Source of the DNA: Amycolatopsis pithecellobii
GTDB lineage: Bacteria > Actinomycetota > Actinomycetes > Mycobacteriales > Pseudonocardiaceae
Assembly: GCF_009707865.1 (NCBI RefSeq)
Contig: NZ_WMBA01000029.1
Location: 1 to 64,000 of the forward strand
Length of the DNA: 64,000 nucleotides
Reading direction: 5' to 3'
The position numbers and the translations under genes were made by a program. Each line of letters begins with the position of its first letter. The first letter of the stretch is position 1. Under the pieces are notes generated by a model. That model saw only the letters and a list, made by a program, of their open reading frames with translations. It made no database searches and was not told the DNA's origin. This document shows positions 24,249 through 40,350 of this stretch, piece after piece.

Positions 24249-24261
24249 ACATCGGATGTTG
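24249..24261. promoter_or_regulatory. Palindrome upstream of the anthraniloyl-CoA monooxygenase operon
   Basis: AACATC-G-GATGTT is a perfect 13-bp palindrome 33 bases before the LLM gene start, in a short A/T-rich promoter region. It is a candidate operator for one of the cluster's regulators; which one cannot be told. Confidence 0.5.
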
Positions 24262-24294
24262 CACTGACCGTTTGACAAGTCTCACGGGGGCGTG

Positions 24295-25134
24295 ATGCAG
24301 GTCGGAATCGGACTTCCCAGCACCGTCCCCGGTACCACGGGGGCCACCCTGTGCGAGTGGGCGCGGCGCGCCGACGCCGGGCCGTTCAGCACGCTCGGCG
24401 TGCTGGACAGGCTGCGCTACGACAGCGTCGATCCGTTCGTGGCGCTGGCCGCCGCCGCGGCGGTGACCGAACGGATCGGCCTGGCCACGACGATCGCGAT
24501 CGGCCCGCTGCGCCGCGCCGCGATGCTGGCCAAGGAAGCGGCCTCCGTGCACGCGTTGGCCCCGGGCCGGATGACGCTCGGGCTCGCGGTCGGCGCCCGG
24601 CCGGATGACTACGAGGTGGCCGAGGCCGCCTACGAAAACCGGGGCACGGCCTTGTCGCGAGAACTGGCCTACCTGCGTGGTCCCTTCGACTCGGCGGGCA
24701 TCGGACCCGCCACAAAGTTCGGCGCCGGTGGCATCCCGGTGCTGATCGGTGGCGCCGGCGGGGCCGCGCTGACCAGGATGGCCCGGTACGCCGACGGTTA
24801 CGTGCACGGCGGCGGCCCGCCACGGGCCTTCGCCTCGGCGGCCACGAAGGCGCGTGCGGCGTGGCGCGATCTCGACCGCCCTGGCGAACCCGTGTTGTGG
24901 GGCCAGGGGTACGTGGCGCTGGGCGACGCCGACCGCGGCCGCGACTACCTGCTCGACTACTACGCGTTCACCGGACCGTTCGCCGCCCGCATCGCGGCCG
25001 GTGTGCTCACCGACGCGGATTCGGTACGCGACTTCGTACGCGGCTACGCCGGAGAGGGCTGCGACGAGTTGCTTTTGTTCCCCACCACCGGCGATCCCGA
25101 CGAAGTGGATCGGCTCGCGGAGATCCTGTCGTGA
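24295..25134 (+). CDS. LLM-class flavin-dependent oxidoreductase
   Basis: A 279-residue luciferase-like TIM-barrel flavoprotein (F420 or FMN dependent). It starts MQVGIGLPSTVPG, typical of the family, and ends with the GCDELLLFPTTGDP segment. Shorter than many members because the insertion region is reduced. The ATG at 24295 is preferred to the adjacent GTG at 24292 for spacing to the GGGGG. The GTG of the next gene overlaps its stop, so it is coupled to the monooxygenase/reductase and may supply a reduction step on the same CoA-bound ring. Confidence 0.8.
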   Translation: MQVGIGLPSTVPGTTGATLCEWARRADAGPFSTLGVLDRLRYDSVDPFVALAAAAAVTERIGLATTIAIGPLRRAAMLAKEAASVHALAPGRMTLGLAVGARPDDYEVAEAAYENRGTALSRELAYLRGPFDSAGIGPATKFGAGGIPVLIGGAGGAALTRMARYADGYVHGGGPPRAFASAATKARAAWRDLDRPGEPVLWGQGYVALGDADRGRDYLLDYYAFTGPFAARIAAGVLTDADSVRDFVRGYAGEGCDELLLFPTTGDPDEVDRLAEILS

Positions 25135-27209
25135 AGGTCGTCGTACTCGGGGGCGGCCCCGCCGGGTTGTACGCCGCGATTCAGTTGCGCAAGTCCGGGC
25201 ACGAGGTGGTGGTGCTCGAACGCAACGCGCCGGACGCGACTTTCGGTTGGGGCGTGGTCTTTTCCGAGGAAACCCTCGGCTCACTCCGCGACGCCGACCC
25301 GCCGACCTACGTACGGATCCGCGACTCGTTCGCCCGATGGGCAGAAGTAGACATCAGGTTCCGTGGCAGGACCATTCGCTCTCGCGGACACGTGTTCTCC
25401 GCGATCGCACGCAAGCGGTTGCTCGCCATCTTGCAGGAACGGGCGCGGGAACTGGGTGCGTCACTGCGGTTCGAGACCGAAGTGGACGGTCCCGCCGGGG
25501 TCGAGGCCGACCTGGTGGTCGCGGCCGACGGGGCGAACAGCCGCAGCCGCGCCCAGCTCGATTTCGGGGCCCGCACGCGTCCGCAGGGCGGCAAGTACGT
25601 GTGGTTCGGTACGGATCTGGTGCTCGACGCCTTCACCTTCGCCTTCCGGGAAACCGAGCACGGGCTTTTCCAGGCACATGCCTATCCCTTCGACGGGCAC
25701 ACCAGTACCTGGATCGTCGAATGCGCAGAGGACGTGTGGCGCGCCGCTGGTCTGGACCACCTTGACGAAGCGGGCAACATCGCGTTCTGCCAGGAGCTGT
25801 TCCGGGCCGAGCTGGCTGGGCACCGGGTGCTGTCCAACCGGTCGCTCTGGCTGGATTTCCCGCTGGTGCAGTGCGATCGGTGGCACCGGGACAACGTCGT
25901 ACTGCTCGGTGACGCCGCGCACACCGCGCATTTCTCCATCGGCTCCGGCACCAAACTCGCGATCGAGGACGCGATCGAGCTGGCGACCGCGCTGGAGGGG
26001 GCGGGCGAACTCGACGTGGCGCTGACCGAGTACGAGTCGGCGCGAAGGCCCATGGTGGAACGGTTTCAGCAGGCGGCGGCCGACAGCGCCGGTTACTTCC
26101 TGCGGACCGCGCGCTACCAGCGGTTCGAGCCCGTGCAGTTCGCGTTCAACCTGCTCACCCGCAGCGGCCGGATCACGCACGCCAATCTGACGCAACGCGA
26201 TCCGCACCTGGTGCGGGCGCTCGACGCCTTCTGCCGCCTCGGTGAACCCGCGCCGCCGGGGGCGGTCGCGGCGCCGCCGATGTTCAGCCCGCTGACGGTG
26301 GGCGGCCTGCGGCTGGCTAACCGGATCGTGGTGGAAACTCCGGACGAGGCCGGTGCACCGGAAAAGGCCGCCACCGGTGCAGGTCTGGTGCTGGCCGGCC
26401 CGGTGGCGATCGACCGCGCCGCACGGGTGAGCCCGGAGACCCCCGTACTGTCCGAAGTGGACTGGACCGTGGTCGCGGCAAAGGTACGGGAGGCGGGTGC
26501 CCGGCTCGGGGTCCGGCTGACACACGCCGGCGCGCGCGGGGCGACGCAGGCTTCCTCGGAAGGCGTGGACCTGCCGTTACCGCCATCGCAGTCGTGGCCC
26601 CTGGTGGCGGCATCGCCGATTCCGTATACGCCGTTCGCGCCGGTTCCGTCCCAGCTGAACGAAGCCGAACTGGACCAGGTACGCACGGCTTTCGCCGATG
26701 CAGCAACGAAAACCGCTCTGTCCGAAGTGGACTTGCTGGAGCTGGACATGGCCGACGGCCGGTTGCTGGCGGGGTTCCTGTCCCCGCTGACCAACCGGCG
26801 CACCGACCGCTGGGGACAGGACAGGTGGGCTTATCCGCTGTCGGTACTGGACGCGGTGCGGGCGGCGTGGCCCGCGGGCAGGCCACTGTCGGTGCGGTTG
26901 ACCGTGGCCGATCGGTTCCCCGGCGGGCTGACCGAGGACGAAGGGATCCGGCTGGCCCGCGCCGTGCGGGAACACGGCGCCGATCTGGTGCACGTACGCG
27001 CCGGCCATTCGGTCGCCGACAGCCGGGCGGACTACCGGAGCGGACACCTGACTGCACTGTCCGATCGGGTCCGGACCGAAGCGGGCGTACCCACGCTGGT
27101 GAGCGGCTATCTGACCACCCCGGACGAGGTGAACACCGCCGTCGGCGCGGGTCGCGCGGACCTGTGCGTGCTGGCCCCGGTGACGCTGGAGCCGGTGATG
27201 CCGGGATGA
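25131..27209 (+). CDS. Anthraniloyl-CoA / salicylyl-CoA monooxygenase-reductase homologue
   Basis: A 692-residue two-domain flavoprotein. Residues 1-375 form a group A FAD monooxygenase (GGGPAGLYAA, GWGVVFSEETL, GDAAHTAHFSIGSGTKLA), the pattern of salicylyl-CoA 5-hydroxylase and 2-aminobenzoyl-CoA monooxygenase. From residue 384 an Old Yellow Enzyme-like domain begins (LANRIVVE), with FLSPLTNRRTDRWG conserved. Characterised 2-aminobenzoyl-CoA monooxygenase/reductases hydroxylate and then dearomatise the ring. Here the OYE domain is short and its HxxH substrate-binding pair is replaced by Asp539 and Asp542, so the reductive half may be lost. Overlaps both neighbours (GTGA, ATGA). Confidence 0.82.
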   Translation: MKVVVLGGGPAGLYAAIQLRKSGHEVVVLERNAPDATFGWGVVFSEETLGSLRDADPPTYVRIRDSFARWAEVDIRFRGRTIRSRGHVFSAIARKRLLAILQERARELGASLRFETEVDGPAGVEADLVVAADGANSRSRAQLDFGARTRPQGGKYVWFGTDLVLDAFTFAFRETEHGLFQAHAYPFDGHTSTWIVECAEDVWRAAGLDHLDEAGNIAFCQELFRAELAGHRVLSNRSLWLDFPLVQCDRWHRDNVVLLGDAAHTAHFSIGSGTKLAIEDAIELATALEGAGELDVALTEYESARRPMVERFQQAAADSAGYFLRTARYQRFEPVQFAFNLLTRSGRITHANLTQRDPHLVRALDAFCRLGEPAPPGAVAAPPMFSPLTVGGLRLANRIVVETPDEAGAPEKAATGAGLVLAGPVAIDRAARVSPETPVLSEVDWTVVAAKVREAGARLGVRLTHAGARGATQASSEGVDLPLPPSQSWPLVAASPIPYTPFAPVPSQLNEAELDQVRTAFADAATKTALSEVDLLELDMADGRLLAGFLSPLTNRRTDRWGQDRWAYPLSVLDAVRAAWPAGRPLSVRLTVADRFPGGLTEDEGIRLARAVREHGADLVHVRAGHSVADSRADYRSGHLTALSDRVRTEAGVPTLVSGYLTTPDEVNTAVGAGRADLCVLAPVTLEPVMPG

Positions 27210-27898
27210 GCGCCCGCAGGATCGTCGTCACCGGCGGCACCCGCGGTATCGGCGCGGCGATCGCGGCGCGCTTCCGGGCCGCGGGCGACGAGGTGATCGC
27301 GATCGGGCACGCGGAATGCGACGTGACGGACGAAGCCGCCGTGGCCGCGTTCTTCGACCGGACCGGGCCGGTGGACGTGCTGGTCAACAACGCCGGTGTC
27401 GCCAGCAGTGCACCACTGGCGAAAACGACGGTGCAGCAGTGGCAGAAAGCCATGGCTGTCAACGCATTCGGCGCGTTCCTGTGCACACGGGCGGTGCTGC
27501 CCGGGATGCTCAGCCGGGACAGCGGCCGGATCGTGACGGTGGCCTCCACCGCGGGGTTGGCCGGCACGCGGTACACCGCCGCCTACACGGCCGCCAAGCA
27601 TGCCGCGGTCGGGCTCATGCGAACCGTGGCCGCGGAGGTGGCCGGGACCGGGGTGACGGCGAACGCGGTCTGCCCCGGCTTCGTGCGCACCGATCTGACG
27701 GCGGAATCCGTGCGTACCATCGTCGCCCGAACCGGCCGCACGGCGCAGGAAGCCGAAGCCACGCTCGCCGGGATGAACCCGCTGGGGCGGCTGCTGGATC
27801 CGGCGGAGGTGGCCGCCGCGGTGGGCTATCTCGCCGACCCGGGTTCCGGCGCGGTCAACGGGCGCGCGCTCGCACTCGACGGAGGGGGAATCCCGTGA
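27206..27898 (+). CDS. SDR-family oxidoreductase
   Basis: A 230-residue classical short-chain dehydrogenase with TGGTRGIG at residues 9-16, NNAG, and the catalytic Ser and YTAAK. The C-terminus VNGRALALDGGGIP fits FabG-like 3-oxoacyl reductases or 3-hydroxyacyl-CoA dehydrogenases. Its ATG overlaps the monooxygenase stop and its own stop overlaps the RidA start, so all four genes are one translationally coupled operon. A role in reducing or oxidising the hydroxylated CoA intermediate is likely. Confidence 0.86.
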   Translation: MSARRIVVTGGTRGIGAAIAARFRAAGDEVIAIGHAECDVTDEAAVAAFFDRTGPVDVLVNNAGVASSAPLAKTTVQQWQKAMAVNAFGAFLCTRAVLPGMLSRDSGRIVTVASTAGLAGTRYTAAYTAAKHAAVGLMRTVAAEVAGTGVTANAVCPGFVRTDLTAESVRTIVARTGRTAQEAEATLAGMNPLGRLLDPAEVAAAVGYLADPGSGAVNGRALALDGGGIP

Positions 27899-28314
27899 GC
27901 CCGCACCGGGTGGTCGACTCGCCACTGCTGGCCACACCGACCGGGTTCGCGCATGCGATCGTCGCCGCCCCTGGCGCACTCGTCCACTTGGCGGGGCAGA
28001 CCGCACAGGACCGCGACGGGCAGATCGCCGGGACGACCATGGCGGAGCAGTTCGACGTGGCGGCGGGCAATGTGGTCACCGCGTTGCGGGCGGCGGGCGG
28101 CGTGCCGGAGGATCTGGTTTCGATGACGGTCTACGTGACCGACGTCGGCGCGTACCGGGCCGCGTTGCGACCGCTGGGCCGGTTGTGGCGCAAGCATTTC
28201 GGCCGACATTACCCGGCGATGGCGCTGCTCGGGGTGCGGGAGTTGTTCGACGCCACGGCCATGATCGAAATGGTCGCAGTGGCCGTGGTTCCTCGTCAGT
28301 CCGAAGTGGACTGA
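27895..28314 (+). CDS. RidA-family protein (YjgF/YER057c/UK114)
   Basis: A 139-residue RidA-type protein; authentic RidA hydrolyses enamines/imines to ketones and ammonia. The conserved catalytic arginine that normally follows YPA is Met here (YPAMALLGVRELF), so classical imine deaminase activity is doubtful, as in several RidA subfamilies. RidA-like proteins also occur in 2-aminobenzoate-CoA clusters, where an enamine intermediate is expected after dearomatisation. The 3' end overlaps the convergent GntR gene by 19 bases. Confidence 0.84.
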   Translation: MSPHRVVDSPLLATPTGFAHAIVAAPGALVHLAGQTAQDRDGQIAGTTMAEQFDVAAGNVVTALRAAGGVPEDLVSMTVYVTDVGAYRAALRPLGRLWRKHFGRHYPAMALLGVRELFDATAMIEMVAVAVVPRQSEVD

Positions 28315-29027
28315 GCGGGCTCGTCGTCGCCGGTGTACTGGTGCACCAGCGCTTTGGCCTCGTGCAGGTGGCTCAGGGTGCGCTCCCTGGCGGACGTCCC
28401 GTCGGAGCGGCGGATGGCCGCGAGGATTTCACGATGTTCCTTGACCGCCTTGCTGATCTGGCCCGGCAACCGCAGCGCGGCGCGGCGTTCCGCACCGACC
28501 AGGGACAGTACCGAACGCAACAACGCGGCCACGTCGTCGTTGCCGGCGTTCTCCGCGATGACCCGGTGGAACTCGGCGTCGGTGGCGATCACCCGCAGCA
28601 TGTCGCCGCCGGCCGCCGCCTCCTCCATTTCCGTCACGTTGGCCCGCAGCTTGGCGAGCACCGGTTCGGTGTGCTGCTGGGCGAGCCGCTCGGCGAGTGT
28701 CGGTTCGACCATCATGCGCAGGTCGAACAGCCGGTCCACCAGCTGGTCGTGCTCACGGAACCAGCTGCGCAGCTGCCTGTCCCCACTGTCACGGTCCCGC
28801 ACGTAGGTGCCCGAGCCCGGGCGGATGGAGACATATCCGATCGAGTCCAGCACCCGCAGCGCCTGGCGCAGCGAGCCGCGGCTGACGTCGAGCTGGTCGC
28901 ACAGCTTGCGTTCCGCGGGCAACCGAGACCCCGCGGGGAGCTCGCCGCTGTCGATGAGCGCACGCAGGTGATCCACGGTTGCGCTCCACACCTGCTCCTG
29001 TGCCACAGGGGAATCCTGCCTGATCAC
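28296..29027 (-). CDS. GntR-family regulator, FadR/FCD subfamily
   Basis: A 243-residue repressor-type regulator with an N-terminal winged helix (residues 10-75, RLPAERKLCDQLDVSRGSLRQAL) and a helical FCD ligand domain carrying the metal-binding residues in DAEFHRVI, VKEHREIL and LSHLHEAKAL. FCD proteins usually sense small carboxylates. It is divergent from the MFS gene at 29209, and a TGGT-N3-ACC half-palindrome typical of this family lies between them. It probably represses itself, the transporter and perhaps the whole cluster. Confidence 0.87.
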   Translation of the reverse strand: MIRQDSPVAQEQVWSATVDHLRALIDSGELPAGSRLPAERKLCDQLDVSRGSLRQALRVLDSIGYVSIRPGSGTYVRDRDSGDRQLRSWFREHDQLVDRLFDLRMMVEPTLAERLAQQHTEPVLAKLRANVTEMEEAAAGGDMLRVIATDAEFHRVIAENAGNDDVAALLRSVLSLVGAERRAALRLPGQISKAVKEHREILAAIRRSDGTSARERTLSHLHEAKALVHQYTGDDEPAQSTSD

Positions 29028-29208: not shown

Positions 29209-30540
29209 ATGACCGACTTGACGTCCGCGGCGATGCGGAAGGCCACCAAACGGCTGGTCCCACTGATGGCGATCTGTTATTTCGTCGCCTATCTCGATCG
29301 CACGAATCTTTCCGTCGCCGCGCTGACCATGAACAAGGAACTCGGCTTCAACGCGACGACCTACGGTTTCGGCGCCGGCGTGCTCTTTCTGGGGTATGTG
29401 CTGCTCGACGCGCCGAGCAACCTGATCATGCACCGGGTCGGCGCCCGGCGGTGGATGGCCCGGATCATGATCGTGTGGGGAATCGTGGCCGCGGCCTGCG
29501 CGACGATCTCCGGCGAGGTCAGCTTCTTCGTGCTGCGGTTTCTGCTCGGCGTGGCCGAGGCCGGGTTCTTCCCCGGCATGATCCTCTACTTGACCTACTG
29601 GTTCCCGGCCGCGCGGCGGGCCACTGTGACCGGCCTGTTCATGGTGGCGGTGCCGTTGTCGACGGCACTGGGTGCACCGCTGGGCGGACTGCTGCTCAAA
29701 CTCGATGGGGCGGCGGGGCTGAGCGGCTGGCAGTGGTTGTACCTCGCCGAGGGCGTGCCCGCGGTCATCCTCGGGATCGCGCTGCTGTGGCTGCTGCCCG
29801 ACCGGCCGGCGAAGGCCAAGTGGCTGACCGACGAGCAGCGCACGGCGATCGAGGATGTGCTCGCCAAGGAGACGGCCGAAACCGAGAAGGGCAACCCGAT
29901 GCCGGTGCGGCGCGCGTTGCTGCACGGCAGGACGCTGGCGCTGGGCCTTGTCTACTTCGGGATCGCTTTCGGGCTCTACGGTCTCGGTTTCTGGATGCCG
30001 CAGATCATCAAGTCCAGCCTGGAAATCAAGGACAATCTGAGCGTCACGTTGCTGACCGCCGCGCCCTATGCGGTGGGTGCGGTGGCGATGGTGGTCTGGG
30101 GCCGCGCGTGTGACCGGGCGGGCAAGTCGGCCACATACACGATGCTGCCCATGGTGGTCGGCGGGGTGGCGCTGGTCGTTTCGGCGTTCCTGACGAGTGC
30201 GCCGTGGCTGGGCTACGCGGGGCTGTGTGCCTGTGCGATCGGCGTGATGGCGGCGTTCCCGGCGTTCTGGACGATGCCCTCGGCGTTCCTGGCCGGCGCC
30301 GCGGCGGCAGGGGCGATCGGGATCATCAACTCCATCGGCAACCTCTCGGGGTTCATCGGGCCGTACTGGGTGGGCTGGATGTCCAGCCTGTTCGGGTCGG
30401 CTCAGTGGGGCCTGGTCACCATCGGCCTGGTGATGACGGCGGGCGGGATGCTGGCCCGCAGCCTCGGTGACACGCCACGTGGGTACGCCTCCGAGCCGCG
30501 CGGGGTGTCGTCGACGCTGGCCACCCCTCCGCAGAGCTGA
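29209..30540 (+). CDS. MFS transporter, anion:cation symporter family
   Basis: A 443-residue, 12-helix transporter of the ACS branch, which moves organic anions such as tartrate, phthalate or 4-hydroxyphenylacetate. The family signature YFVAYLDRTNLSVAAL is in helix 1 and FLLGVAEAGFFPGMILYLTYWFP in helices 4-5. The ATG at 29209 follows GAGGAGAGG. Its place next to GntR and ahead of the ligase operon suggests it carries an aromatic acid or the pathway product; direction is not known, though ACS members are mostly importers. Confidence 0.87.
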   Translation: MTDLTSAAMRKATKRLVPLMAICYFVAYLDRTNLSVAALTMNKELGFNATTYGFGAGVLFLGYVLLDAPSNLIMHRVGARRWMARIMIVWGIVAAACATISGEVSFFVLRFLLGVAEAGFFPGMILYLTYWFPAARRATVTGLFMVAVPLSTALGAPLGGLLLKLDGAAGLSGWQWLYLAEGVPAVILGIALLWLLPDRPAKAKWLTDEQRTAIEDVLAKETAETEKGNPMPVRRALLHGRTLALGLVYFGIAFGLYGLGFWMPQIIKSSLEIKDNLSVTLLTAAPYAVGAVAMVVWGRACDRAGKSATYTMLPMVVGGVALVVSAFLTSAPWLGYAGLCACAIGVMAAFPAFWTMPSAFLAGAAAAGAIGIINSIGNLSGFIGPYWVGWMSSLFGSAQWGLVTIGLVMTAGGMLARSLGDTPRGYASEPRGVSSTLATPPQS

Positions 30541-30644: not shown

Positions 30645-30719
30645 AAAAACCATAGCTTGAGCCAGTCAATCGATCATTTTCTGGCACAACGGCTTTTCGA
30701 TTGTGCGGTGGCAATCTCC

Positions 30720-32048
30720 ATGCACACGTTCTGGAATCCGCGTACCGAGACGCTCGACCGGCCCGGTCTCGAACGGCTACAGGCGGCGAAGCTGCGTCGC
30801 GTCGTCGCCTGGGCGGCCGACCGGAGCCCGTTCTACCGGCAGCGGCTCGCCGATGCGGGCGTGACGCCGGCCGACCTGCACACGGTCGCCGACGTCACCG
30901 CCCTGCCGCTGCTGACCCGGGACGAGTGGATGGCGGCGCAGACGGCCTCCCCGCCCTACGGGACGTTGCCCGCGATCGAGGCACACCAGGCCGTCCGGGT
31001 GCACACCACGAGCGGCACCACCGGGCGGGAACCGTTGCGCGCACTCGACACCCGCAAGGACTGGGCGTGGGCGGCGGAAATGTGGTGCTACGGGTTGTGG
31101 GGCGCAGGGGTGCGCCCGGCCGACACCGCCTATGTGGCCTTCGGCTACGGCTCGTTCATCGGGTTCTGGGGACTGCACTACGGGCTGGAGAAGATCGGTG
31201 CGCTGGTGGTTCCCGGCGGCGCGCAGGACACCGCGAACCGGGTGCGCCAGATCGTCGACTTCGGCGCGACGGTGGTGGCCTCGACTCCGACCTACGCGCT
31301 ACGGCTCGCCGAAGAGGCCCGAGCACTGGGCGTCGACCTTCCTTCGTCCACTGTGGACAAGGTGATCCTGTCCGGCGAACCAGCCGGGTCGATCCCCGCC
31401 ACCAAGCAGCTCATCGAAGAGCAGTGGGGCGCACGGGCCTTCGACACCGCCGGGATGACCGAGGTGTCAACGATCTTCATGTTCGAATGCGCCTACCAGC
31501 CTGGCGGCGCGCACATCATCGAGGACCACCTGCTCGAAGAGGTGCTCGAACCGGGTGGCGACACCCCCGTCGGATACGGCGAGCTCGGTGAGCGAGTGGT
31601 GACGAGTTTCGGGCGCAGCGCGGTGCCGTTGTTGCGGTACCGCACCTCGGATCTGGTGATCAGAGAACCCGGCTCGCGGTGTGCGTGCGGCCGGATATTC
31701 GACCTCTATTCCGGAGGTGTGCGTGGGCGGGTCGACGACATGAAACTGGTCCGTGGCACCAATGTCTACCCGCGGGCGGTCGAGTCGATCGTGCGCGGAC
31801 ATCCGGAGATCAGCGAGTTCCAGCTGCGGATCAGCCGCGAGGGCACGCGTGACGAAATCACGCTCAGGGTGGAGGCCGGCCGGGCCGACGACGGCCTGCG
31901 GAAGCGGCTGCTCGACGAGCTGGCCCAGGCGCACGAGGGGCTGCGGTTCCGCGTCGAGTTCTGCGAACCGGGCGGGTTGCCGCGGTTCGAGCTCAAGGCC
32001 AGACGGCTTGTCGACGACCGGCCGGAAATGGTGCCGGCACATGTCTGA
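30720..32048 (+). CDS. PaaK-type acyl-CoA ligase, probably for anthranilate or a related aromatic acid
   Basis: A 442-residue adenylate-forming ligase of the phenylacetate-CoA ligase family. From the ATG at 30720 it begins MHTFWNPRTETLDRPGLE, the usual PaaK N-terminus; the frame is open 63 bases further, but those residues are not conserved. The P-loop is TTSGTTGREP, and later motifs are FDTAGMTEVS, YRTSDLV and GRVDDMKLVRGTNVYP. It converts an aromatic acid, ATP and CoA to the acyl-CoA. Co-operonic TrpE(G) points to anthranilate as substrate; this is inferred. Confidence 0.83.
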   Translation: MHTFWNPRTETLDRPGLERLQAAKLRRVVAWAADRSPFYRQRLADAGVTPADLHTVADVTALPLLTRDEWMAAQTASPPYGTLPAIEAHQAVRVHTTSGTTGREPLRALDTRKDWAWAAEMWCYGLWGAGVRPADTAYVAFGYGSFIGFWGLHYGLEKIGALVVPGGAQDTANRVRQIVDFGATVVASTPTYALRLAEEARALGVDLPSSTVDKVILSGEPAGSIPATKQLIEEQWGARAFDTAGMTEVSTIFMFECAYQPGGAHIIEDHLLEEVLEPGGDTPVGYGELGERVVTSFGRSAVPLLRYRTSDLVIREPGSRCACGRIFDLYSGGVRGRVDDMKLVRGTNVYPRAVESIVRGHPEISEFQLRISREGTRDEITLRVEAGRADDGLRKRLLDELAQAHEGLRFRVEFCEPGGLPRFELKARRLVDDRPEMVPAHV

Positions 32049-32250: not shown

Positions 32251-32273
32251 ACCGGCCGGAAGGAGGTCAGCCG

Positions 32274-32819
32274 ATGGCGGACCTGACGTTCACCCTCGAC
32301 GGCGCCACCCCGGAACTGGCTGGGGACGTCTTCGTCGCACCCACCGCGGCGCTGATCGGCGCGGTGCGGATCGGACCTGGCGCGAGCATCTGGTTCGGGG
32401 CGGTGCTGCGCGCCGATCAGAACCGGATCGAAATCGGCGCCGGGACGAACATCCAGGACAACGCCGTACTGCACGCCGATCCGGCGGACTACCCGGGATA
32501 TCCGGTGCTGCTCGGCGAAGACGTCACGGTCGGGCACGGCGCGGTGCTGCACGGGTGCAGCGTCGGCTCCGGCGCGCTGATCGGGTCCGGGGCGATCGTG
32601 CTCGACGGGGCTTCCATCGGCGCCGGGGCGCTCGTGGCCGCGGGGGCATTGGTGCCGGCGGGCCGGGAGATCGAGCCGGGCGTGCTCGCCGTCGGGTCAC
32701 CGGCGAAGGTCGTGCGGGAACTCACCGAGCAGGAGCGGGCCGGTCTGGTCCGCCCGCCCCAGCTGTACCGGGCGCTGGCCGAAAGGTATCTGCGGCAAGG
32801 AAAGGCAGCGGCACGGTGA
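32274..32819 (+). CDS. Gamma-carbonic-anhydrase-family protein (PaaY-like)
   Basis: A 181-residue left-handed beta-helix protein of hexapeptide repeats. The metal-binding histidines are visible in DNAVLHAD, VTVGHGAVLHGC. In phenylacetate catabolism the related PaaY is a thioesterase that frees CoA from dead-end intermediates, which would make sense beside a CoA ligase. Carbonic anhydrase activity is the alternative. A GGAGG Shine-Dalgarno precedes the ATG at 32274, and the next gene overlaps its stop by four bases. Confidence 0.82.
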   Translation: MADLTFTLDGATPELAGDVFVAPTAALIGAVRIGPGASIWFGAVLRADQNRIEIGAGTNIQDNAVLHADPADYPGYPVLLGEDVTVGHGAVLHGCSVGSGALIGSGAIVLDGASIGAGALVAAGALVPAGREIEPGVLAVGSPAKVVRELTEQERAGLVRPPQLYRALAERYLRQGKAAAR

Positions 32820-35026
32820 TCGTCGAGCGAACCGAATTCGACACCGCGGGCGGGTTGCGGATCCGGCGGACGAGCGCCGCCGCAACCGACCGGGACTGGC
32901 AGGAGCTGCTCGCGGGGGTCGATCACCGGCCCGGCGGCGTGCTCGAATGCCAGGTGACCTACCCGGGCCGCTACCTGCCGTGGCGCCTCGGCTTCGCCGA
33001 TCCGTACGTCGTATACGAGTCCACCGGGACCGGCTTCCGGTTCCTGAGCCTCCGCTCGGACGCGCGTCCGGTGCTCGATTTCCTTTACGCCGCACTGAAA
33101 TCCGCGCCGGCCATCGCGGACCTGTCGTGGTCGCCCGACGGATTCACCGGCCGTATCGAGACCACCGAAGGGGAGCTGACGGAGGAGCAGCGCACGTTGC
33201 GCCCGACCGCGGTGCACCCGTTGCGGGCGACCGGCGCGGCGCTGCGCACCACGGCGGACGCCTATCTGGGCTGGTACTGCGCCTTCGGTTACGAACTGCT
33301 GACCCAATGGGACCCGATCGAGCCGCGCCTGCCGCGTCCGGACGACCTGCGCACGGTGGTGGCGTATCTGCCGGGCAGGCTGCTCGTCGCCGGGGCCGAC
33401 GGGGACGCGCTGACCGAGCACGTCTACCGCTGCGGGGACCCGGATACACCGGTGCCGGACGGCACCGCGGACTACGTGCGGACAGCCGAAAGCTCGCACT
33501 CGCTGCCCGGCTGCACCGCCGATGCGGAGCGTTATCAGGCCGGGGTGCGGGAGGCGTTGACGCGCTTCCACCGCGGTGATCTGTTCGAGGTGGTGCTGAG
33601 CCAGACCATCGTCCAGCCGGTGCGGCAAAGCCCGGCCGCCGTTTACCGGCGCCTCACCACCGCGAACCCCAGCCCGTACCAGTTCTTGCTGAACCTGGGC
33701 CGCGGCGAGTTCCTGGTGGGCGCTTCCCCGGAGATGTTCGTGCGGGTGCGCGGGGATCGCGTCGAGACCTGCCCCATCTCCGGCACGGTCAGCCGGGGTG
33801 CGGACGCGCTCGACGACACCGTGCACATCATGACTTTACTCAAGTCCGAAAAGGACGAAGCCGAGCTGACGATGTGCACCGATGTGGACCGCAACGACAA
33901 GTCGCGGGTGTGCCGCCCCGGCACGGTGGAGATCATCGGGCGACGGCAGATCGAGCTGTACAGCAAGCTCATCCACACCGTGGATCACGTGCAGGGAAGG
34001 CTGCGCGACGACTGCGACGCGTGGGACGCGTTCCTGAGCCACATGTGGGCGGTGACCGTGACCGGCGCGCCGAAACGGGCCGCCACCCAGTTCATCGAGG
34101 ACCACGAAACTTCGGCCCGGCGCTGGTACGGCGGCGCGGTCGGAGTCGCCCGGTTCGACGGGTCGATGGAAACCGGGCTCACCCTGCGGGCCGCGCGGAT
34201 GTGCGAAGGCTCGGCCGAGATCAGGGTCGGGGCCACACTGCTGGCCGACAGCGACCCGGCAGCGGAAGAGGCCGAGACGCGGCTCAAGGCGGCCGCGGTC
34301 GTCGCCGCGATCGAAGGCCCCGCGCCCGTGACTCCCGTAGCCGCGGCTCAGGCGGAACCGGATGGCCCGTCCGTGCTGGTCGTGGACCACGAGGACTCGT
34401 TCGTGCACACCCTCGCCGACTACTTCCGCCAGGCCGGCTGCCTCACCACGACCCGGCGGTGGGGCTTCGCCGAACACCACCTGGACGAAGCCGATCTCGT
34501 CGTGCTGTCGCCGGGCCCGGGCCGTCCCGAGGACTTCGTCGTGCGGGAAACCATCGAGCGCTGCGTGCGCCGGGGACTGCCGGTATTCGGGGTCTGCCTC
34601 GGTTTGCAGGGCATCGTCGAGTACTGCGGCGGGCGGATCGGGACGCTGCCCCGGCCGGTGCACGGGCGCGGCACCAAGATCACCGTCACCGAGCCCGGTG
34701 ACCCGCTGTTCGCCGGGCTGCCGGAACGATTCGTCGCCGGGCGCTACCACTCGCTACGCGCCCGGCAGCTCGATTTGCCCGGCGAACTCCGGATGACGGC
34801 GCAAAGCGACGACGGCGTGGTCATGGCCGTGCGCCACCGCAGGCTGCCACTGCTGGGCGTGCAGTTCCATCCCGAATCCCTGCTGACACTGGACAACCGC
34901 AACGGGCATCGCCTCGTGTCCAATGTGGTCACCGAGTTCAGTCGGCGCTCGGACGCCGCGACGTCAGCTCCTCCGGTTCGGCCCCGCCAGGGAGGTGCTT
35001 ACGCCGATGCTCGCTCTGCAGAATGA
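32816..35026 (+). CDS. Fused anthranilate synthase TrpE(G)
   Basis: A 736-residue fusion that makes anthranilate from chorismate and glutamine. Residues 1-510 are the chorismate-binding TrpE part, with CPISGTVSRG, ELTMCTDVDRNDKSRV, IHTVDHVQG, MWAVTVTGAPK and WYGGAVG, all typical of rhizobial-type TrpE(G). From about residue 520 comes a class I glutamine amidotransferase (VLVVDHEDSFVHT, SPGPGRP, nucleophile Cys594 in FGVCLGLQG, His in QFHPES). PhzE-like aminodeoxyisochorismate synthases share this layout, so that product is the main alternative. The GTG overlaps the PaaY-like stop. No other trp genes are near, so a dedicated pathway is likely. Confidence 0.88.
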   Translation: MIVERTEFDTAGGLRIRRTSAAATDRDWQELLAGVDHRPGGVLECQVTYPGRYLPWRLGFADPYVVYESTGTGFRFLSLRSDARPVLDFLYAALKSAPAIADLSWSPDGFTGRIETTEGELTEEQRTLRPTAVHPLRATGAALRTTADAYLGWYCAFGYELLTQWDPIEPRLPRPDDLRTVVAYLPGRLLVAGADGDALTEHVYRCGDPDTPVPDGTADYVRTAESSHSLPGCTADAERYQAGVREALTRFHRGDLFEVVLSQTIVQPVRQSPAAVYRRLTTANPSPYQFLLNLGRGEFLVGASPEMFVRVRGDRVETCPISGTVSRGADALDDTVHIMTLLKSEKDEAELTMCTDVDRNDKSRVCRPGTVEIIGRRQIELYSKLIHTVDHVQGRLRDDCDAWDAFLSHMWAVTVTGAPKRAATQFIEDHETSARRWYGGAVGVARFDGSMETGLTLRAARMCEGSAEIRVGATLLADSDPAAEEAETRLKAAAVVAAIEGPAPVTPVAAAQAEPDGPSVLVVDHEDSFVHTLADYFRQAGCLTTTRRWGFAEHHLDEADLVVLSPGPGRPEDFVVRETIERCVRRGLPVFGVCLGLQGIVEYCGGRIGTLPRPVHGRGTKITVTEPGDPLFAGLPERFVAGRYHSLRARQLDLPGELRMTAQSDDGVVMAVRHRRLPLLGVQFHPESLLTLDNRNGHRLVSNVVTEFSRRSDAATSAPPVRPRQGGAYADARSAE

Positions 35027-35486: not shown

Positions 35487-35616
35487 CTGATGACCTCCTC
35501 CGGAAACAGTGTCCTGCCAGCGGCGGGTTTTTCCGTACGAAAGTTTACCGTTCGGGTTTCGAACTGCATATGTGTCCAGTCAAGACAAGTTTCGATCGAG
35601 ACATCCGGGAGTAGCG

Positions 35617-36570
35617 ATGGCGAGGGTTGCGGGCCTGGCCGGCGTGGCGCACCAGTCGTTCGACACGGTGCGATACGAACGTGACGGCTGGGTCGCCACG
35701 ATCACGATCGACCGGGAACGCACGCTCAACAGCTTCTGCCTCCGGTTGTTCGAGGAGATCCAGGACGCCCTGCGGATCGCCGAACGCGACGACGCGGTGG
35801 CGGTGGTGGTGCTGACCGGCGCGGGTGAGCGGGCCTTCTGTTCCGGCGCCGATATCCGGGAGCACTGGGAGCTGTGCCAACGGCCGCGGGACTACCTCAA
35901 GTGGATCCGCGAGTTCGTGGCCATGCAGACGGCGCTGATGCGCTGCCCCAAACCCACCATCGCCCGGCTCAACGGGTTGGTGCTGGGCGGGGGCAACGAG
36001 CTGAACATGGCTTGCGACCTGGCGATAGCCGCCGACGATGTGATCATCCAGCAGGCCGAGCCCGCCCGCGGCAGCGTCTCCGGGATCGGGGTCACCCAGT
36101 GGCTGCCGCTCGCGGTCGGAGACCGGCGCGCGCGGGAGGCGATCTTCCTGTGCGAGCCGATCAGCGCCACCCAGGCGGTGGAGTGGGGCATGATCAACCA
36201 CGCGGTGCCGCGGGCCGAGCTCGACACCGCGGTGGCCGCGATGGCGGGCAAGCTGGCCGACAAGTTCCCCGAAGCGTTGCGCTACGCCAAGGTCCAGGTC
36301 AACGCCCTGCGCGAGCAGGTGTGGTCGGCGACCGCACCCCACGCCGCCGAATGGCTGGCCATCCACGCCGGCTCCCCCGAAGCACACGAAGGCATGCGGG
36401 CGTTTCTGGACAAGCGCGAGCCGGACCGCATCGGGCTGCGCGAGCGCGCGGTCCGCGACGAATCACCGGAGTTCGCCGATGGCCCCCCGGTCGGTGAGTG
36501 CCCCGAATGCGGGGCGCGGCAACTGCCCGAGCGGCACGCCTTCTGCGGTCACTGCGGCACGAAGTTGTGA
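35617..36570 (+). CDS. BamA/Oah-like ring-opening hydrolase (6-oxocyclohex-1-ene-1-carbonyl-CoA hydrolase type)
   Basis: A 317-residue crotonase-fold protein. Rather than an ordinary enoyl-CoA hydratase it shows the BamA pattern: GGGNELNMACDLAI (residues 124-137), TQWLPLAVGDRRARE (160-174), KFPEALRYAKVQVN (216-229), and a C-terminal zinc ribbon with Cys295, Cys298, Cys310 and Cys313. BamA adds two waters to an alicyclic dienoyl/oxo-CoA and opens the ring in the anaerobic benzoyl-CoA pathway. Here the substrate is probably the dearomatised anthraniloyl-CoA product. It heads a tight four-gene operon with acyl-CoA dehydrogenases and a KARI. Confidence 0.75.
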   Translation: MARVAGLAGVAHQSFDTVRYERDGWVATITIDRERTLNSFCLRLFEEIQDALRIAERDDAVAVVVLTGAGERAFCSGADIREHWELCQRPRDYLKWIREFVAMQTALMRCPKPTIARLNGLVLGGGNELNMACDLAIAADDVIIQQAEPARGSVSGIGVTQWLPLAVGDRRAREAIFLCEPISATQAVEWGMINHAVPRAELDTAVAAMAGKLADKFPEALRYAKVQVNALREQVWSATAPHAAEWLAIHAGSPEAHEGMRAFLDKREPDRIGLRERAVRDESPEFADGPPVGECPECGARQLPERHAFCGHCGTKL

Positions 36571-36576
36571 GTTGCC

Positions 36577-37737
36577 ATGGACTTTCGTGAGACGGATGAG
36601 GAAACCCGCTTCCGGTTGGAGCTACGGAAGTGGCTGGCATCGGTGCCGCATCGCCGGCAGGGCTCCGCGGATGACAGCGATACGGTCGCCATGCGGTTCA
36701 CCGCGGGCCGGCGGTGGCACAGCGCGCTCGCCGAGGGCGGCTGGCTCGGATTGGACTGGCCCACCGAATACGGCGGGCGCGGGCTGGACGGGGCGTACCA
36801 GATCATCCTCAACGAGGAGCTCGACGCCATCGACGCCCCACAGCTGGCCACCTGGGTGGGGGTCGAACTGGTGGCGCCGACCTTGCTGCGCTGGGGTTCG
36901 CCCGCGCAACGAGAGCGGCACCTGCCGCCGATCCTCGCCGGGACCGAAGTGTGGTGCCAGGGCTTTTCGGAGCCCGATGCGGGGTCGGACCTCGCCGCGG
37001 TCCAGACCACTGCGACCCGCACCGAGACGGGTTTCGTGCTCACCGGGCACAAACAGTGGACGAGCTGGGCGCAGTTCGCCCAGTACGCATTGGTGCTGGC
37101 GCGAACCGGCGAGGAGAGCGCCCGGCACCGGGCGCTGACCTGTTTCATCGTGCCACTTTCGGCGCCGGGGGTGCGGGTCACGCCGATCCCGATGCTCTAC
37201 GGCGACGCCGAGGAATGCGACGTGCACCTGGATTCCGTGCACGTGCCCGCCGATGCCGTGGTGGGTGAGGTGGACCAGGGCTGGCAAGTCGTGATGACCA
37301 GCCTCAGCCTGGCCAGGGGCGCCGCGACGCTCGCCCGCATCCGCACCCTGGGCAGCCTGTACCGGCACTTCGCGACCGAGACACTGGCCGCACGGACCGC
37401 ACATGACGTCCTGCCGCAGCCGTTGGCACTGACCGGCGCGCGCCTGGAAGCGTTGCGGTTCCTGGCTTATCGCAAGATCGGGGAAATGGTGGAGGACGGC
37501 GAGCCCGGCCCGATCGCCTCCACGGAAAAGCTGTTGTGGGCCCGGTTTTCGACCCAGCTGGCGGAGCTGGCGCTGGACAGCGCGGGCCTGCTGGGTGTCA
37601 CCGAGGCCGGCCCGTGGGGTGGTTCCACCGGCTGGCGCCGCCACCTCTACCGGTCATTCGCCAACGAGATCGAGGGCGGCACCAACGAAATCCAGCGCAC
37701 CATCATCGCCAGGCACGTCCTGGGGCTGCCCTGCTGA
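36577..37737 (+). CDS. Acyl-CoA dehydrogenase, catalytic-type subunit
   Basis: A 386-residue FAD acyl-CoA dehydrogenase of full length. The FAD-binding WCQGFSEPDAGSDLA and the catalytic-base region ANEIEGGTNEIQRTI (Glu before GGT) are intact. It lies six bases after the BamA-like gene and 21 before a shorter, divergent homologue. That pairing resembles the alpha2-beta2 dehydrogenases (FadE28-FadE29) used on bulky or ring acyl-CoA substrates in actinobacteria. Confidence 0.86.
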   Translation: MDFRETDEETRFRLELRKWLASVPHRRQGSADDSDTVAMRFTAGRRWHSALAEGGWLGLDWPTEYGGRGLDGAYQIILNEELDAIDAPQLATWVGVELVAPTLLRWGSPAQRERHLPPILAGTEVWCQGFSEPDAGSDLAAVQTTATRTETGFVLTGHKQWTSWAQFAQYALVLARTGEESARHRALTCFIVPLSAPGVRVTPIPMLYGDAEECDVHLDSVHVPADAVVGEVDQGWQVVMTSLSLARGAATLARIRTLGSLYRHFATETLAARTAHDVLPQPLALTGARLEALRFLAYRKIGEMVEDGEPGPIASTEKLLWARFSTQLAELALDSAGLLGVTEAGPWGGSTGWRRHLYRSFANEIEGGTNEIQRTIIARHVLGLPC

Positions 37738-37758
37738 AAACCCGGACGGAGCGCATCC

Positions 37759-38850
37759 ATGAGGTTCACTCTCACCCAAGACCAGATCGCCTTACGCAGT
37801 AAGGCGGCGGAGTCCTTCCGGCCGCTGCCGGTGCCGTGGCCGCCCTATCCCGGCGACCGGCTGATGCCTGCCGAGCCGGCCGACGACCGGCAGGAGGTCA
37901 CGCAGTTCGGCGCGCTCATCGACGGGGTGTGGGACGGCGAGCCCGCCGCGGGTGACGACCGGCTGCTGCGCACCGCGCTGGTCGCCGAGGCGGCAGGCGG
38001 CGCCTTCCCGGTGTCGAGCATCGTCGAACTCGTCCTGCTGCGCAGGCTGGCCGCCGGTTCCGCGGAACTGGCCGAAGCGCTGGCCGGACGGCGGCATGTT
38101 GCGGCGTTCTCGTGCGCTCCGGGGACGCCGACCGCGCGGTTGCGCCGGGCGGGCCGCAACTACCAGCTGAGCGGACGGTGTCAGGCCGTGTGCAGTCAGC
38201 CCGCCGACCGCGTTTTGTTGCCGGCCAAGCAGGACGGGCGGATCGTGCTGGTATCGGTGGACCCGGCCGAGCCCGGGATCGAGGCCACTGAACGGCATCC
38301 GGTCGCGGCCGGAACCACCTTGCTGGAACTGGATTTCACCAACGCGCGGCTGGCCCCGGACCAGGTTTTTCCGCTGCCCGCAACGGCAGGATCGCTCACC
38401 GACCTGAACTCGCTGGGCCGGCTGCTGTCCGCCGCCGAACTGGTCGGGGTCATGCAGTGGGCACTCGACGCCGCGGTCGGACGGGCACGCACCCGGCAGC
38501 AGTTCGGCCGCCCGATCGGTGCGTTCCAGGCCGTCGCCCACCAGTGCGCGGACCTGCTGTGCACGGTCGAACTGTGCCGCTCGCTGGTTTACGCCGCCGC
38601 GGTCACCCACGACGGCGGCGGTATCCCCGACCGGCGCCTGGCCGCACAGGCGTGGCTGCTGGTCTGGCACGAGTCGCTCGGGGTGCTGACCACGGCGCTG
38701 CACCTGTTCGGCGCCGACGGGCTTCGCTGGTCCGAACCACTGCACCTGCAACTCAAGCGATGCCAGCTGCGCCGGCAACTGTGGGGCGATATGCACGAGG
38801 TGTCCAGCTATCTGACCGAAACACGGCCCACCGGGAACGGAGGAGTTTGA
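37759..38850 (+). CDS. Acyl-CoA dehydrogenase, divergent partner subunit
   Basis: A 363-residue acyl-CoA dehydrogenase homologue. The FAD-domain residues are retained in part (RARTRQQFGRPIGAFQAVAHQCAD), but the N-terminal domain is eroded and the catalytic Glu/GGTNEIQR motif is absent at the C-terminus. It therefore looks like the non-catalytic subunit of a heteromeric dehydrogenase with 36577-37737. Its stop overlaps the KARI start by one base. Confidence 0.82.
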   Translation: MRFTLTQDQIALRSKAAESFRPLPVPWPPYPGDRLMPAEPADDRQEVTQFGALIDGVWDGEPAAGDDRLLRTALVAEAAGGAFPVSSIVELVLLRRLAAGSAELAEALAGRRHVAAFSCAPGTPTARLRRAGRNYQLSGRCQAVCSQPADRVLLPAKQDGRIVLVSVDPAEPGIEATERHPVAAGTTLLELDFTNARLAPDQVFPLPATAGSLTDLNSLGRLLSAAELVGVMQWALDAAVGRARTRQQFGRPIGAFQAVAHQCADLLCTVELCRSLVYAAAVTHDGGGIPDRRLAAQAWLLVWHESLGVLTTALHLFGADGLRWSEPLHLQLKRCQLRRQLWGDMHEVSSYLTETRPTGNGGV

Positions 38851-39830
38851 TGGCCCAGGTACTCACCAGCGCCGATATCGATCAGACCATACTGCTGGAA
38901 AAACCGGTCGCGGTGCTCGGCTACGGCTCGCAGGGGCGCGCGCAGGCGTTGAACCTGCGCGACTCCGGGGTGGACGTGCGGGTCGGTCTACGCGACGGCG
39001 CGCCCTCCGCGGAGCGCGCACGGGACGACGGGATGCGCGTGGTCGACGTGCCCACCGCCGTCGCCGAGGCGACGCTGGTCGCCATGCTGATCCCGGACAC
39101 CGCCGCGCCCGCCGTGTTCCGGGAGTGGGTGGCGCCGGATCTCGCACGGGGCGACGCGGTGCTGTTCGCGCACGGGTTCAACGTCCATTACTCCACTGTG
39201 GACATTCCGGCGACGGTGGACGTGATCATGGTGGCGCCCAAGGCACCGGGTCATGCGGTCCGCACCACCTTCGCCGACGGGCACGGCGTCCCCTGCCTGA
39301 CCGCGGTGTCGCAGGACTTCACCGGGCAGGCAACGGAACTGGCCAACGCCTATGCCGACGCGATCGGTGGCGGCCGGGCCGGAATCCTCGCCACGACCTT
39401 CGCCGAGGAGACCGAAACGGACCTGTTCGGCGAGCAGTCCGTGCTCGTCGGCGGTGTCACCGGGCTGATCAGGACCGCGTTCGAAGTCCTGGTCGATGCG
39501 GGCTACCAGCCGGAGTCGGCGTACTTCGAGTGCGCCCACGAGCTGAAGCTGGTCGTCGATCTCATTTACGAGCACGGGCTCGCCGGGATGTACCGGTTCA
39601 TCTCGGACACCGCCGAATTCGGCGACTACCACACCGCGAACCGCCCGGTGTGGAGCCAGGTTCGCGCGCATTTCACCGGCCTGCTGCAAGAGATTCAGGA
39701 CGGCCGGTTCGCCCGGACCTGGATTGCGGAGGACGAGTCCGGCCGCGCCATGTTCCTGGCCGCCCGCAAGGCCGCAGCCGGCCACCCGATCGAAGAGGTC
39801 GGCGAGCGGTTGCGCGGGCTCACCCGGTGA
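38850..39830 (+). CDS. Ketol-acid reductoisomerase homologue, not in an ilv operon
   Basis: A 326-residue class I ketol-acid reductoisomerase. The dinucleotide motif GYGSQG, FAHGFNVHY with the catalytic His, metal ligands in EETETDLFGEQ and FECAHELKL, and the Ser in FISDTAEFGDY are all present. It normally moves an alkyl group in 2-acetolactate and reduces the product with NADPH. Here no ilvB or ilvN is near and it ends an acyl-CoA operon, so a paralogue acting on a beta-keto, alpha-hydroxy intermediate, possibly with ring contraction or chain rearrangement, is a reasonable guess. GGAGGAG precedes the ATG. Confidence 0.85.
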   Translation: MAQVLTSADIDQTILLEKPVAVLGYGSQGRAQALNLRDSGVDVRVGLRDGAPSAERARDDGMRVVDVPTAVAEATLVAMLIPDTAAPAVFREWVAPDLARGDAVLFAHGFNVHYSTVDIPATVDVIMVAPKAPGHAVRTTFADGHGVPCLTAVSQDFTGQATELANAYADAIGGGRAGILATTFAEETETDLFGEQSVLVGGVTGLIRTAFEVLVDAGYQPESAYFECAHELKLVVDLIYEHGLAGMYRFISDTAEFGDYHTANRPVWSQVRAHFTGLLQEIQDGRFARTWIAEDESGRAMFLAARKAAAGHPIEEVGERLRGLTR

Positions 39831-39834
39831 CGGA

Positions 39835-40350
39835 TCAGGGCGAACGCACTCTGCCGCCGCCCGTACCCCGGTGAACCTTGACGTAGGTACGCCGGATGCG
39901 GGCCACCTGGTAGGAGCCCGGGAAGGCGGGATGGGAAAGGGCGTGCAGCAGCTGCCGGTGTTCGTGCTCGTCGGCCTCGACGTGCAGCACCGAACTCCAG
40001 CGGCCTGCGGTGCGATAGACAGTCCGGATGGCGGAGCCGGGCACGGTGCCGTCCGTGGCCGGATCGCCCGGCGTGGACATCGCGACGAACAGGTCCGCCG
40101 TGTCCGGTGGGATGCCGGTTCGCTCCGTGCACACCACCGCCCGGCAACCGCGCAGAACGCCGAGCTGGCCCAGCCGCCGGAGCCGGCGTTCGGCCGCCGC
40201 CGCGCTCAGACCGGTGGCACGGCCCAGCGCGGCCGACGAGAGCCTCGGGTTGAGCATGAGCACCTCCACCAACGCGCGGTCGGCGTCGTCGATACCTGGT
40301 GTGACTTCCCGGCCGGAGCCGCGATCTGAGGCGGGTTTCGCCCTGGTCAT
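39835..40350 (-). CDS. Lrp/AsnC-family regulator, cluster copy 2
   Basis: A 171-residue regulator starting at the ATG at 40348-40350 after GGAGGGACC. It has an HTH of the AsnC type (residues 20-60, ADRALVEVLMLNPRLSSAALG) and a RAM-like C-terminal domain. It converges on the KARI gene with five bases between stops and lies at the end of the anthraniloyl-CoA cluster. A perfect 15-bp palindrome is upstream. Confidence 0.78.
   Translation of the reverse strand: MTRAKPASDRGSGREVTPGIDDADRALVEVLMLNPRLSSAALGRATGLSAAAAERRLRRLGQLGVLRGCRAVVCTERTGIPPDTADLFVAMSTPGDPATDGTVPGSAIRTVYRTAGRWSSVLHVEADEHEHRQLLHALSHPAFPGSYQVARIRRTYVKVHRGTGGGRVRSP

Follow-up and report, generated by a model that had tools for sequence, protein, structure and literature searches.

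Anthranilate (2-aminobenzoate) can be degraded aerobically as its CoA ester, and the closest described routes are those of Azoarcus evansii and of Arthrobacter sp. Rue61a, the latter encoded on plasmid pAL1. Both use 2-aminobenzoyl-CoA monooxygenase/reductase (ACMR), a fusion of an FAD monooxygenase and an Old Yellow Enzyme (OYE) domain. Its product is given in a review as 2-amino-5-oxocyclohex-1-ene-1-carbonyl-CoA (PMC4539516). For Rue61a, another paper reports that the ligase encoded beside the pAL1 ACMR is active on anthranilate (PMC3534580). According to the same paper, cells grown on anthranilate contain, besides anthraniloyl-CoA, what is presumed to be hydroxyanthraniloyl-CoA and a CoA ester of C7H8O4, perhaps cyclohexanedione-carboxyl-CoA. 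This report is about a locus that carries relatives of these enzymes together with an anthranilate synthase (a TrpE-TrpG fusion, TrpEG) and a ketol-acid reductoisomerase (KARI). It lies in a stretch of 64,000 nucleotides of Amycolatopsis pithecellobii (NZ_WMBA01000029.1, positions 1 to 64,000), called the window below, on contig 66 of the 7.9-Mb genome.

The locus is quite likely a single biosynthetic pathway, assembled from parts of aerobic CoA-dependent anthranilate degradation. The known anthraniloyl-CoA route would have been joined, probably for biosynthesis, to its own precursor supply and to a KARI.

Genes were called with a codon-based gene finder and family profile searches, and start sites are predicted ones. 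There are three compact operons on the plus strand, at 24295-28314, 30708-35026 and 35617-39830. All their genes have high third-position GC, high coding scores and clear family matches, which bears out the three plus-strand operons and named enzymes of an earlier note made from the letters alone. That note let the first gene start at 24249, where the predicted start is 24295. It also called the operons adjacent; the runs are tight, but a GntR-type regulator (28296-28991, minus strand) and a major facilitator superfamily (MFS) permease (29209-30540, plus strand) separate the first two.

A gene set in three lineages

The crotonase of the third operon was used as the marker for the set. In each genome the top five candidates were scored (the top two in the ACMR search described below). 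Among 390 family genomes, 3 carry the marker, namely the window's own and two genomes of another genus, G368 and G371. It was also found in 1 of 394 class genomes, again the window's own, and in 1 of 382 Streptomyces genomes, that of Streptomyces eurythermus JCM 4206, which was the query centre of that search. All four distinct genomes that have the crotonase carry the set. G368 and G371 are closely related and therefore count once, as a second genus, so that there are three lineages and not four. This patchy distribution is as expected of a natural-product cluster.

The common set consists of the crotonase, two acyl-CoA dehydrogenase subunits (ACAD1 and ACAD2), KARI, TrpEG, ACMR, a CoA ligase, a short-chain dehydrogenase/reductase (SDR) and a RidA-family protein. 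The order crotonase-ACAD1-ACAD2-KARI is identical in all lineages, and the remaining genes are rearranged. The earlier note had proposed looking for co-occurrence of TrpEG, ligase, ACMR and crotonase in other actinomycetes, and the search finds these recurring together in the three lineages.

In the second genus the order is SDR-RidA-ligase-ACMR-crotonase-ACAD1-ACAD2-KARI-TrpEG-DAHP synthase (3-deoxy-D-arabino-heptulosonate 7-phosphate synthase). The last is a short class-II enzyme, additional to a full-length one. A gene for the dehydratase IlvD lies about 5 kb beyond this cluster; its membership is less sure because transporter and regulator genes intervene.

The S. eurythermus cluster (NZ_BMSK01000007.1, 391220-412717) has genes for a permease, a PaaK-type ligase, a counterpart of the window's 69-aa protein and ACMR, followed by RidA, SDR and IlvD on the opposite strand. 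Then come PaaY-like, PanC-like, cytochrome P450, acyl carrier protein (ACP), ligase, second PaaY-like and TrpEG genes, next an Lrp gene, and then crotonase, ACAD1, ACAD2 and KARI. Where genes of the other clusters fell outside the family search, as with the S. eurythermus regulators, names were given on inspection or from resemblance to genes of the window. The P450, ACP, PanC-like and extra ligase genes occur only in this cluster. The IlvD proteins of S. eurythermus and the second genus share 66% identity. Compared with the window, PaaK is 73%, TrpEG 62% and PaaY-like 67% identical, and the permease adjoining the ligase is 62% identical to the window MFS permease. These accessory genes of S. 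eurythermus (PanC-like, P450, ACP, ligase), and the extra DAHP synthase of the second genus, point to biosynthesis.

Several observations weigh against a biosynthetic pathway. No polyketide synthase, nonribosomal peptide synthetase or other assembly gene was recognised among the window genes scanned, which are not all of its genes. The neighbouring genes are catabolic or general, and an uptake-type MFS permease with a GntR regulator is what a catabolic locus would be expected to have. PanC, P450, ACP and DAHP synthase genes are not in the window set. The only nearby IlvD-family gene is 21 kb away and 35% identical to the IlvD of the second-genus cluster. S. eurythermus does not have the same accessory genes as the second genus, so the clusters may lead to different end products. 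Because only the top two to five candidates per genome were scored, the genome counts may miss members.

The IlvD-family gene of the window, at approximately 61171-62900 and about 21 kb from KARI, encodes an IlvD/Edd-family dehydratase that resembles sugar-acid enzymes. It was not counted with the set.

A proposed route from chorismate to a dearomatised ring

The proposed route builds on direct observations, which are the genes, their conserved grouping, the tryptophan-route neighbours of ACMR relatives, and the catalytic motifs of TrpEG and KARI. TrpEG would turn chorismate into anthranilate, which the PaaK-type ligase, with the 69-aa protein, would convert to anthraniloyl-CoA; this first part is well supported. 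The ACMR-like enzyme would then hydroxylate C5. A reduction assisted by the LLM-class (luciferase-like monooxygenase) oxidoreductase, or in relatives performed by the fusion's own OYE domain, would give 2-amino-5-oxocyclohex-1-ene-carbonyl-CoA, a step supported by the relatives. The ligase and ACMR chemistry is modelled on literature about such relatives. Plausibly, RidA would hydrolyse the enamine to a 2-oxo compound, with loss of the anthranilate nitrogen, and the SDR would reduce a ketone. Modifying or opening the ring may then fall to the crotonase together with the two-subunit acyl-CoA dehydrogenase, and KARI would rearrange or reduce (or both) an acid specific to the product. We infer the role of the LLM enzyme, the order and substrates of the steps after deamination, and the product. 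The RidA step predicts a CoA ester like the C7H8O4 one described for Rue61a (PMC3534580).

The TrpE-TrpG fusion (32816-35026) passes the curated cut-off for the TrpE-clade3 fusion (TIGR01815, 851 against 739 bits) and that of NF010081 (901 bits). Its catalytic motifs are intact, with what we take to be the lyase-step histidine and the cysteine and histidine of the glutamine amidotransferase. It is an extra copy; the genome has seven chorismate-binding hits, this one included.

The ligase (30708-32048; PF14535) is a PaaK-type AMP-forming enzyme, and from its context it is proposed to activate anthranilate to anthraniloyl-CoA. A scan of GTDB species genomes for this ligase gave 52 loci. Family hits for PaaK yielded short loci only, and the counts on surroundings refer to these 52. 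An ACMR match is present in 42, a RidA match in 36 and the 69-aa protein in 44 (E<1e-3); tryptophan 2,3-dioxygenase (TDO) or kynureninase was found in 9 within the available stretch. TrpEG was found in none of the 52, of which 23 end at contig ends, making gene absence less certain. The second genus has a ligase of the benzoate-CoA-ligase type, where the window and S. eurythermus have the PaaK type. It is 56% identical to the ligase adjoining ACMR on pAL1, which we take to be the one reported active on anthranilate.

The 69-aa protein (32041-32250) is often found beside this PaaK clade and belongs to the DUF6052 group. Of 32 group members aligned, 17 have a PF19522 match at E<=0.01, and the copy of the window is not among them. 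Proteins of the group may be partners of PaaK-type ligases. They also follow such ligases both in anthranilate loci and in the C-1027 enediyne cluster (L229:15274-15483).

Next in the operon is a PaaY/gamma-carbonic-anhydrase-like hexapeptide protein (32274-32819), with 166 bits to NF050158 and 146 bits to PaaY, both below cut-off. PaaY acts as a thioesterase, and the PaaY-like protein is a possible thioesterase as well. G371 does not have the gene, and G368 has only a 51% match 11 kb upstream.

In the first operon (LLM, ACMR, SDR, RidA) each successive pair of genes shares a 4-base overlap. The ACMR-like fusion (25131-27209) reaches 736 bits against a NF006101 cut-off of 1078, which the proteins of the second genus and S. 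eurythermus exceed. The two halves of the window fusion are not both intact: in the OYE domain the motif HxxH has become DxxD, and in the other two lineages the motif is intact. The ACMR proteins of those two lineages are 61% identical to the pAL1 ACMR and the window protein, from another subclade, 43%. With different ligase types and ACMR subclades joined to the same remaining set, the clusters therefore seem to share an anthraniloyl-CoA step, and not joint descent alone.

At the chosen threshold, ACMR relatives occur in 47 of 390 family genomes, that of the window included. Of the other 46, 41 have close relatives (56-69% identity) and 5 have relatives near 48%. The surroundings were read for 38 of the 41 (all except G183, G208 and G209), 34 of them over the full 20 kb. 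TDO and kynureninase genes adjoin ACMR in all 38, which makes anthranilate the likely substrate, since these enzymes form the route from tryptophan to anthranilate. TrpEG and KARI were found in none of these 38 loci. In the window, TrpEG therefore appears to replace the tryptophan route.

The earlier note held that a TrpEG and a KARI are unexpected in a catabolic set, and the 38 catabolic loci without either agree with this. With both genes inside it, the set of the window is not a purely catabolic one. The note's central idea, a self-supplied pathway that probably serves biosynthesis and not plain catabolism, is supported by these loci and by the co-occurrence in three lineages.

Salicylate, which the NCBIfam name of the fusion suggests as substrate, was considered and rejected. 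The TDO and kynureninase neighbours speak against it. So do the ACMR relatives on pAL1 and BG43, which are plasmids for quinaldine or alkylquinolone breakdown (PMC3534580; BG43 judged from its gene names).

The state of the OYE domain was compared with the presence of an LLM gene in the loci that have a full-length ACMR, which are 76 of 92. Only LLM genes of the window subfamily (>150 bits) were counted. The first OYE histidine is lost in 41 of the 76 and kept in 35. An LLM gene is present in 40 of the 41 and in none of the 35. The sole locus with histidine loss and no LLM gene, L159, is on a contig of 5.8 kb. As close kin make up most of the 41, they do not represent 41 independent events. 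Two loci, L131 and L133, carry LLM genes of another subfamily, outside the count. In two haloarchaeal plasmid relatives of ACMR the first histidine is Asn, and an LLM gene adjoins. The association covers the window ACMR and loci L063-L102, L130-L181, L232 and L233. Because histidine loss goes together with an LLM neighbour, we infer that in this branch the LLM enzyme (24295-25134; F420/FMN-type, PF00296 83 bits) performs the reductive half-reaction in place of the degenerate OYE domain, which would have lost it. G368 also has a weak LLM match (32%, 100 bits), located about 9 kb upstream of its SDR; it was left out of that cluster.

The SDR (27206-27898; PF00106) and the RidA-family protein (27895-28314; PF01042, 58 bits) complete the operon, and both occur in all three lineages.

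KARI and what it may do

The window KARI (38850-39830) passes its curated cut-off (NF004017, 461 against 336 bits). It is an extra copy; the genome has two KARI hits, and the other adjoins a gene that looks ilvN-like by eye. Cluster KARIs are 58-65% identical across lineages and 48-54% identical to six other aligned KARIs (51-53% for the window protein); a separate comparison puts the S. eurythermus KARI at 66% to that of the window. All four cluster KARIs retain D191, E195, E227, E231 and S252, presumably for metal binding and catalysis. The window and S. eurythermus proteins also have an unchanged PK..GH loop, but G368 and G371 have Arg in place of its histidine. Fixed changes of the cluster KARIs include G132 to Ala and L136 to Ala or Asp in the PKGPGHL loop, G242 to His, and R/K246 to Gly or Ala. 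S250 has become Phe or His, two residues ahead of the catalytic serine. Because these fixed differences adjoin metal and catalytic residues, we read the cluster KARIs as having a remodelled pocket. They are proposed to act on some 2-hydroxy-3-oxo acid, or as 2-keto-acid reductases.

On plasmids, KARI was found in 43 records, with 49.5-54.9% identity among the 20 listed; none of the four loci examined out of these 43 has this gene set. TrpEG gave 137 plasmid records, the best at 51.7% identity among the 30 listed. Four of the 137 were examined: L189-L191 are in other kinds of cluster, and L192 is without a recognised one. For the crotonase, no relative on plasmids was found at E<=1e-40. A KARI-like gene of a Solirubrobacterales metagenome-assembled genome (L133:18985-19974; 35%, 151 bits) lies on the opposite strand, about 8 kb from PaaK and ACMR, and was rejected as a cluster member.

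Some of these plasmid loci can be described further. L189 and L190 are TrpEG fusions in other clusters on two Streptomyces plasmids. The annotation of L190 includes FAD/NAD(P)-binding and lyase-family genes, a content reminiscent of nitrite-forming diazo clusters. In L225, on a Rhodococcus pseudokoreensis plasmid, an accessory ilvC adjoins GntR, LysR and 3-hydroxyisobutyrate dehydrogenase genes.

The crotonase (35617-36570), which has a C-terminal zinc ribbon, belongs to the MenB/BadI/BamA group. The earlier note called it BamA-like. It is indeed similar to BamA (6-oxocyclohex-1-ene-1-carbonyl-CoA hydrolase), but 149 bits is far from the cut-off of 464, and MenB (166 bits) and BadI (149 bits), also below their cut-offs, score as well or better. 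The proposed activity is hydrolysis of a C-C or thioester bond, or hydration. The enzyme is 75% identical to its relative in S. eurythermus and 60% to those in G371 and G368. ACAD1 (36577-37737) is PimC-like, below cut-off, and 61-62% identical to the S. eurythermus relative and 55% to the others. The divergent ACAD2 (37759-38850) has a weak IpdE2-like match, with 43-45% and 34% identity respectively.

One variant of the biosynthetic pathway is possible but doubtful. The crotonase would cleave the deaminated ring, the acyl-CoA dehydrogenases would desaturate a C7 dicarboxyl-CoA, and KARI would merely reduce a 2-keto acid. The likeness of the crotonase to MenB, BadI and BamA, and of ACAD1 to PimC, suits this, and KARIs are promiscuous reductases (PMC4353338). 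Less suited are the three crotonase scores, all under curated cut-offs, and the KARI, which retains the residues that presumably serve rearrangement as well as those for reduction. In two lineages KARI is also accompanied by IlvD, which follows the rearrangement in known pathways.

Another variant is an unlikely one. An alpha-ketol ring contraction by KARI would turn anthranilate into a cyclopentane building block. The substrate would be a C1-hydroxylated 2-oxo- or 2,5-dioxocyclohexane-1-carboxylate, a cyclic analogue of acetolactate. A shift of a ring bond would then give (1-hydroxycyclopentyl)glycolate, which IlvD, in the two of three lineages that have it, might dehydrate to a cyclopentyl 2-keto acid mimicking a valine/isoleucine intermediate. 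Its weakest point is the C1-hydroxylase that it requires; a P450 is found in S. eurythermus alone.

Alternatively, the locus could hold two precursor supplies, although this too is improbable. TrpEG (with DAHP synthase) would supply anthranilate, KARI (with IlvD) a branched 2-keto or pantoate-like acid, and the two would be joined. IlvD does occur with KARI in two of three lineages, and the PanC-like ligase of S. eurythermus is a possible joining enzyme, but such an extra PanC is present in one of four genomes and one lineage. A KARI paralogue near the valanimycin cluster shows selectivity for valine precursors, but it is part of an ilvBNCE operon with acetohydroxyacid synthase (PMC4353338). 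At 10336-11961, 12 kb upstream of LLM, the window does encode a member of the acetolactate-synthase superfamily, a thiamine-diphosphate enzyme. It falls below all acetolactate-synthase cut-offs shown and adjoins an iron-type alcohol dehydrogenase gene. It has no match (E<=1) in the S. eurythermus, G368 and G371 stretches, and the clusters therefore have no acetolactate-synthase-like gene in common. Two supplies would also leave the ACAD pair and the crotonase unexplained, and the cluster KARIs form a divergent clade altered near the catalytic serine.

Plain catabolism is quite unlikely. It would make this an aerobic anthraniloyl-CoA degradation locus in which TrpEG and KARI were captured by chance or are isozymes. 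ACMR, LLM, SDR, RidA, PaaK, the 69-aa protein and the MFS permease all have relatives in catabolic-looking loci, and many window neighbours are catabolic. However, TrpEG and KARI recur with the same crotonase and ACAD pair in three lineages, in rearranged order, and TrpEG is absent from the 38 ACMR loci and, within their contig-end limits, from the 52 PaaK loci. To synthesise anthranilate in order to burn it would also be futile.

A cluster that carries additional copies of amino-acid enzymes may do so for self-resistance. That KARI, TrpEG, IlvD and DAHP synthase are resistant copies against a cluster-made inhibitor of amino-acid synthesis is nevertheless very improbable, as several distinct targets would be required, KARI and TrpEG alone of the four occur in every lineage, and in the window these two share operons with pathway enzymes.

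Surroundings and comparison with known systems

The MFS permease between the first two operons is of the HpaX/aromatic-acid type (TIGR02332, 290 bits, below cut-off). The GntR-type regulator next to it was named by family search and has relatives (31-35% identity) near the clusters of the second genus and S. eurythermus. After KARI comes an Lrp/AsnC-like regulator with weak matches (39835-40350, minus strand). AsnC/Lrp genes lie near the other two clusters as well, where the window copy has no match above 60 bits.

The right flank, at 40531-49503 on the minus strand, is an aromatic and sugar catabolic island. It has genes for an SDR, L-2-hydroxyglutarate oxidase, 3-carboxyethylcatechol dioxygenase, an HsaD-like hydrolase and a sugar ABC transporter. 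ARAGORN calls a tRNA-Leu inside the KARI gene (38933-39020, minus strand), probably a false positive.

If the biosynthetic pathway is real, a degradation pathway would have been converted to synthesis, with anthranilate made on site, dearomatised as a CoA ester and then remodelled by an enzyme of amino-acid synthesis. The cluster is small and conserved in three actinobacterial lineages, and S. eurythermus JCM 4206, which represents one of them, is available from a culture collection. That OYE histidine loss goes with an LLM gene also yields a testable idea of how the reductive step is carried out. Should KARI act on a ring-derived acid, the short list of enzymes for alpha-ketol rearrangement would be widened. 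A 2021 review names only KARI, with amino-acid substrates, and AuaG (PMC8551875), and a ring-contracting KARI would therefore be an addition. Open-licence PubMed Central papers yielded no description of a cluster of this kind, which is weak evidence of absence.

In the C-1027 enediyne cluster, with its chorismate-derived branch, a PaaK-type ligase is likewise paired with a DUF6052 protein. The pair lies about 10 kb from sgcD and sgcG, both annotated as chorismate-using. However, the C-1027 ligase is only 44% identical, and the annotation of the stretch read shows no ACMR, KARI or acyl-CoA dehydrogenase. The valanimycin-adjacent paralogue Svi2 is likewise a KARI tied to a biosynthetic cluster. 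Unlike the KARIs described here, it is accompanied by genes for acetohydroxyacid synthase and specialised for valine (PMC4353338); no such gene was found in common among the three lineages.

The kynurenine-route clusters of the same family (LLM-ACMR-ligase-SDR-crotonase-RidA) contain direct relatives of LLM, ACMR, SDR and RidA. They differ in drawing anthranilate from tryptophan, in using another ligase and another crotonase, and in having neither TrpEG nor KARI.

With the pathway of Azoarcus evansii and Arthrobacter Rue61a the locus shares a CoA ligase, the ACMR-type fusion and, on pAL1, RidA. To these it adds an anthranilate synthase, a KARI, a distinct crotonase and a two-subunit acyl-CoA dehydrogenase. 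It also differs in its degenerate OYE half and in the presence of an LLM enzyme.

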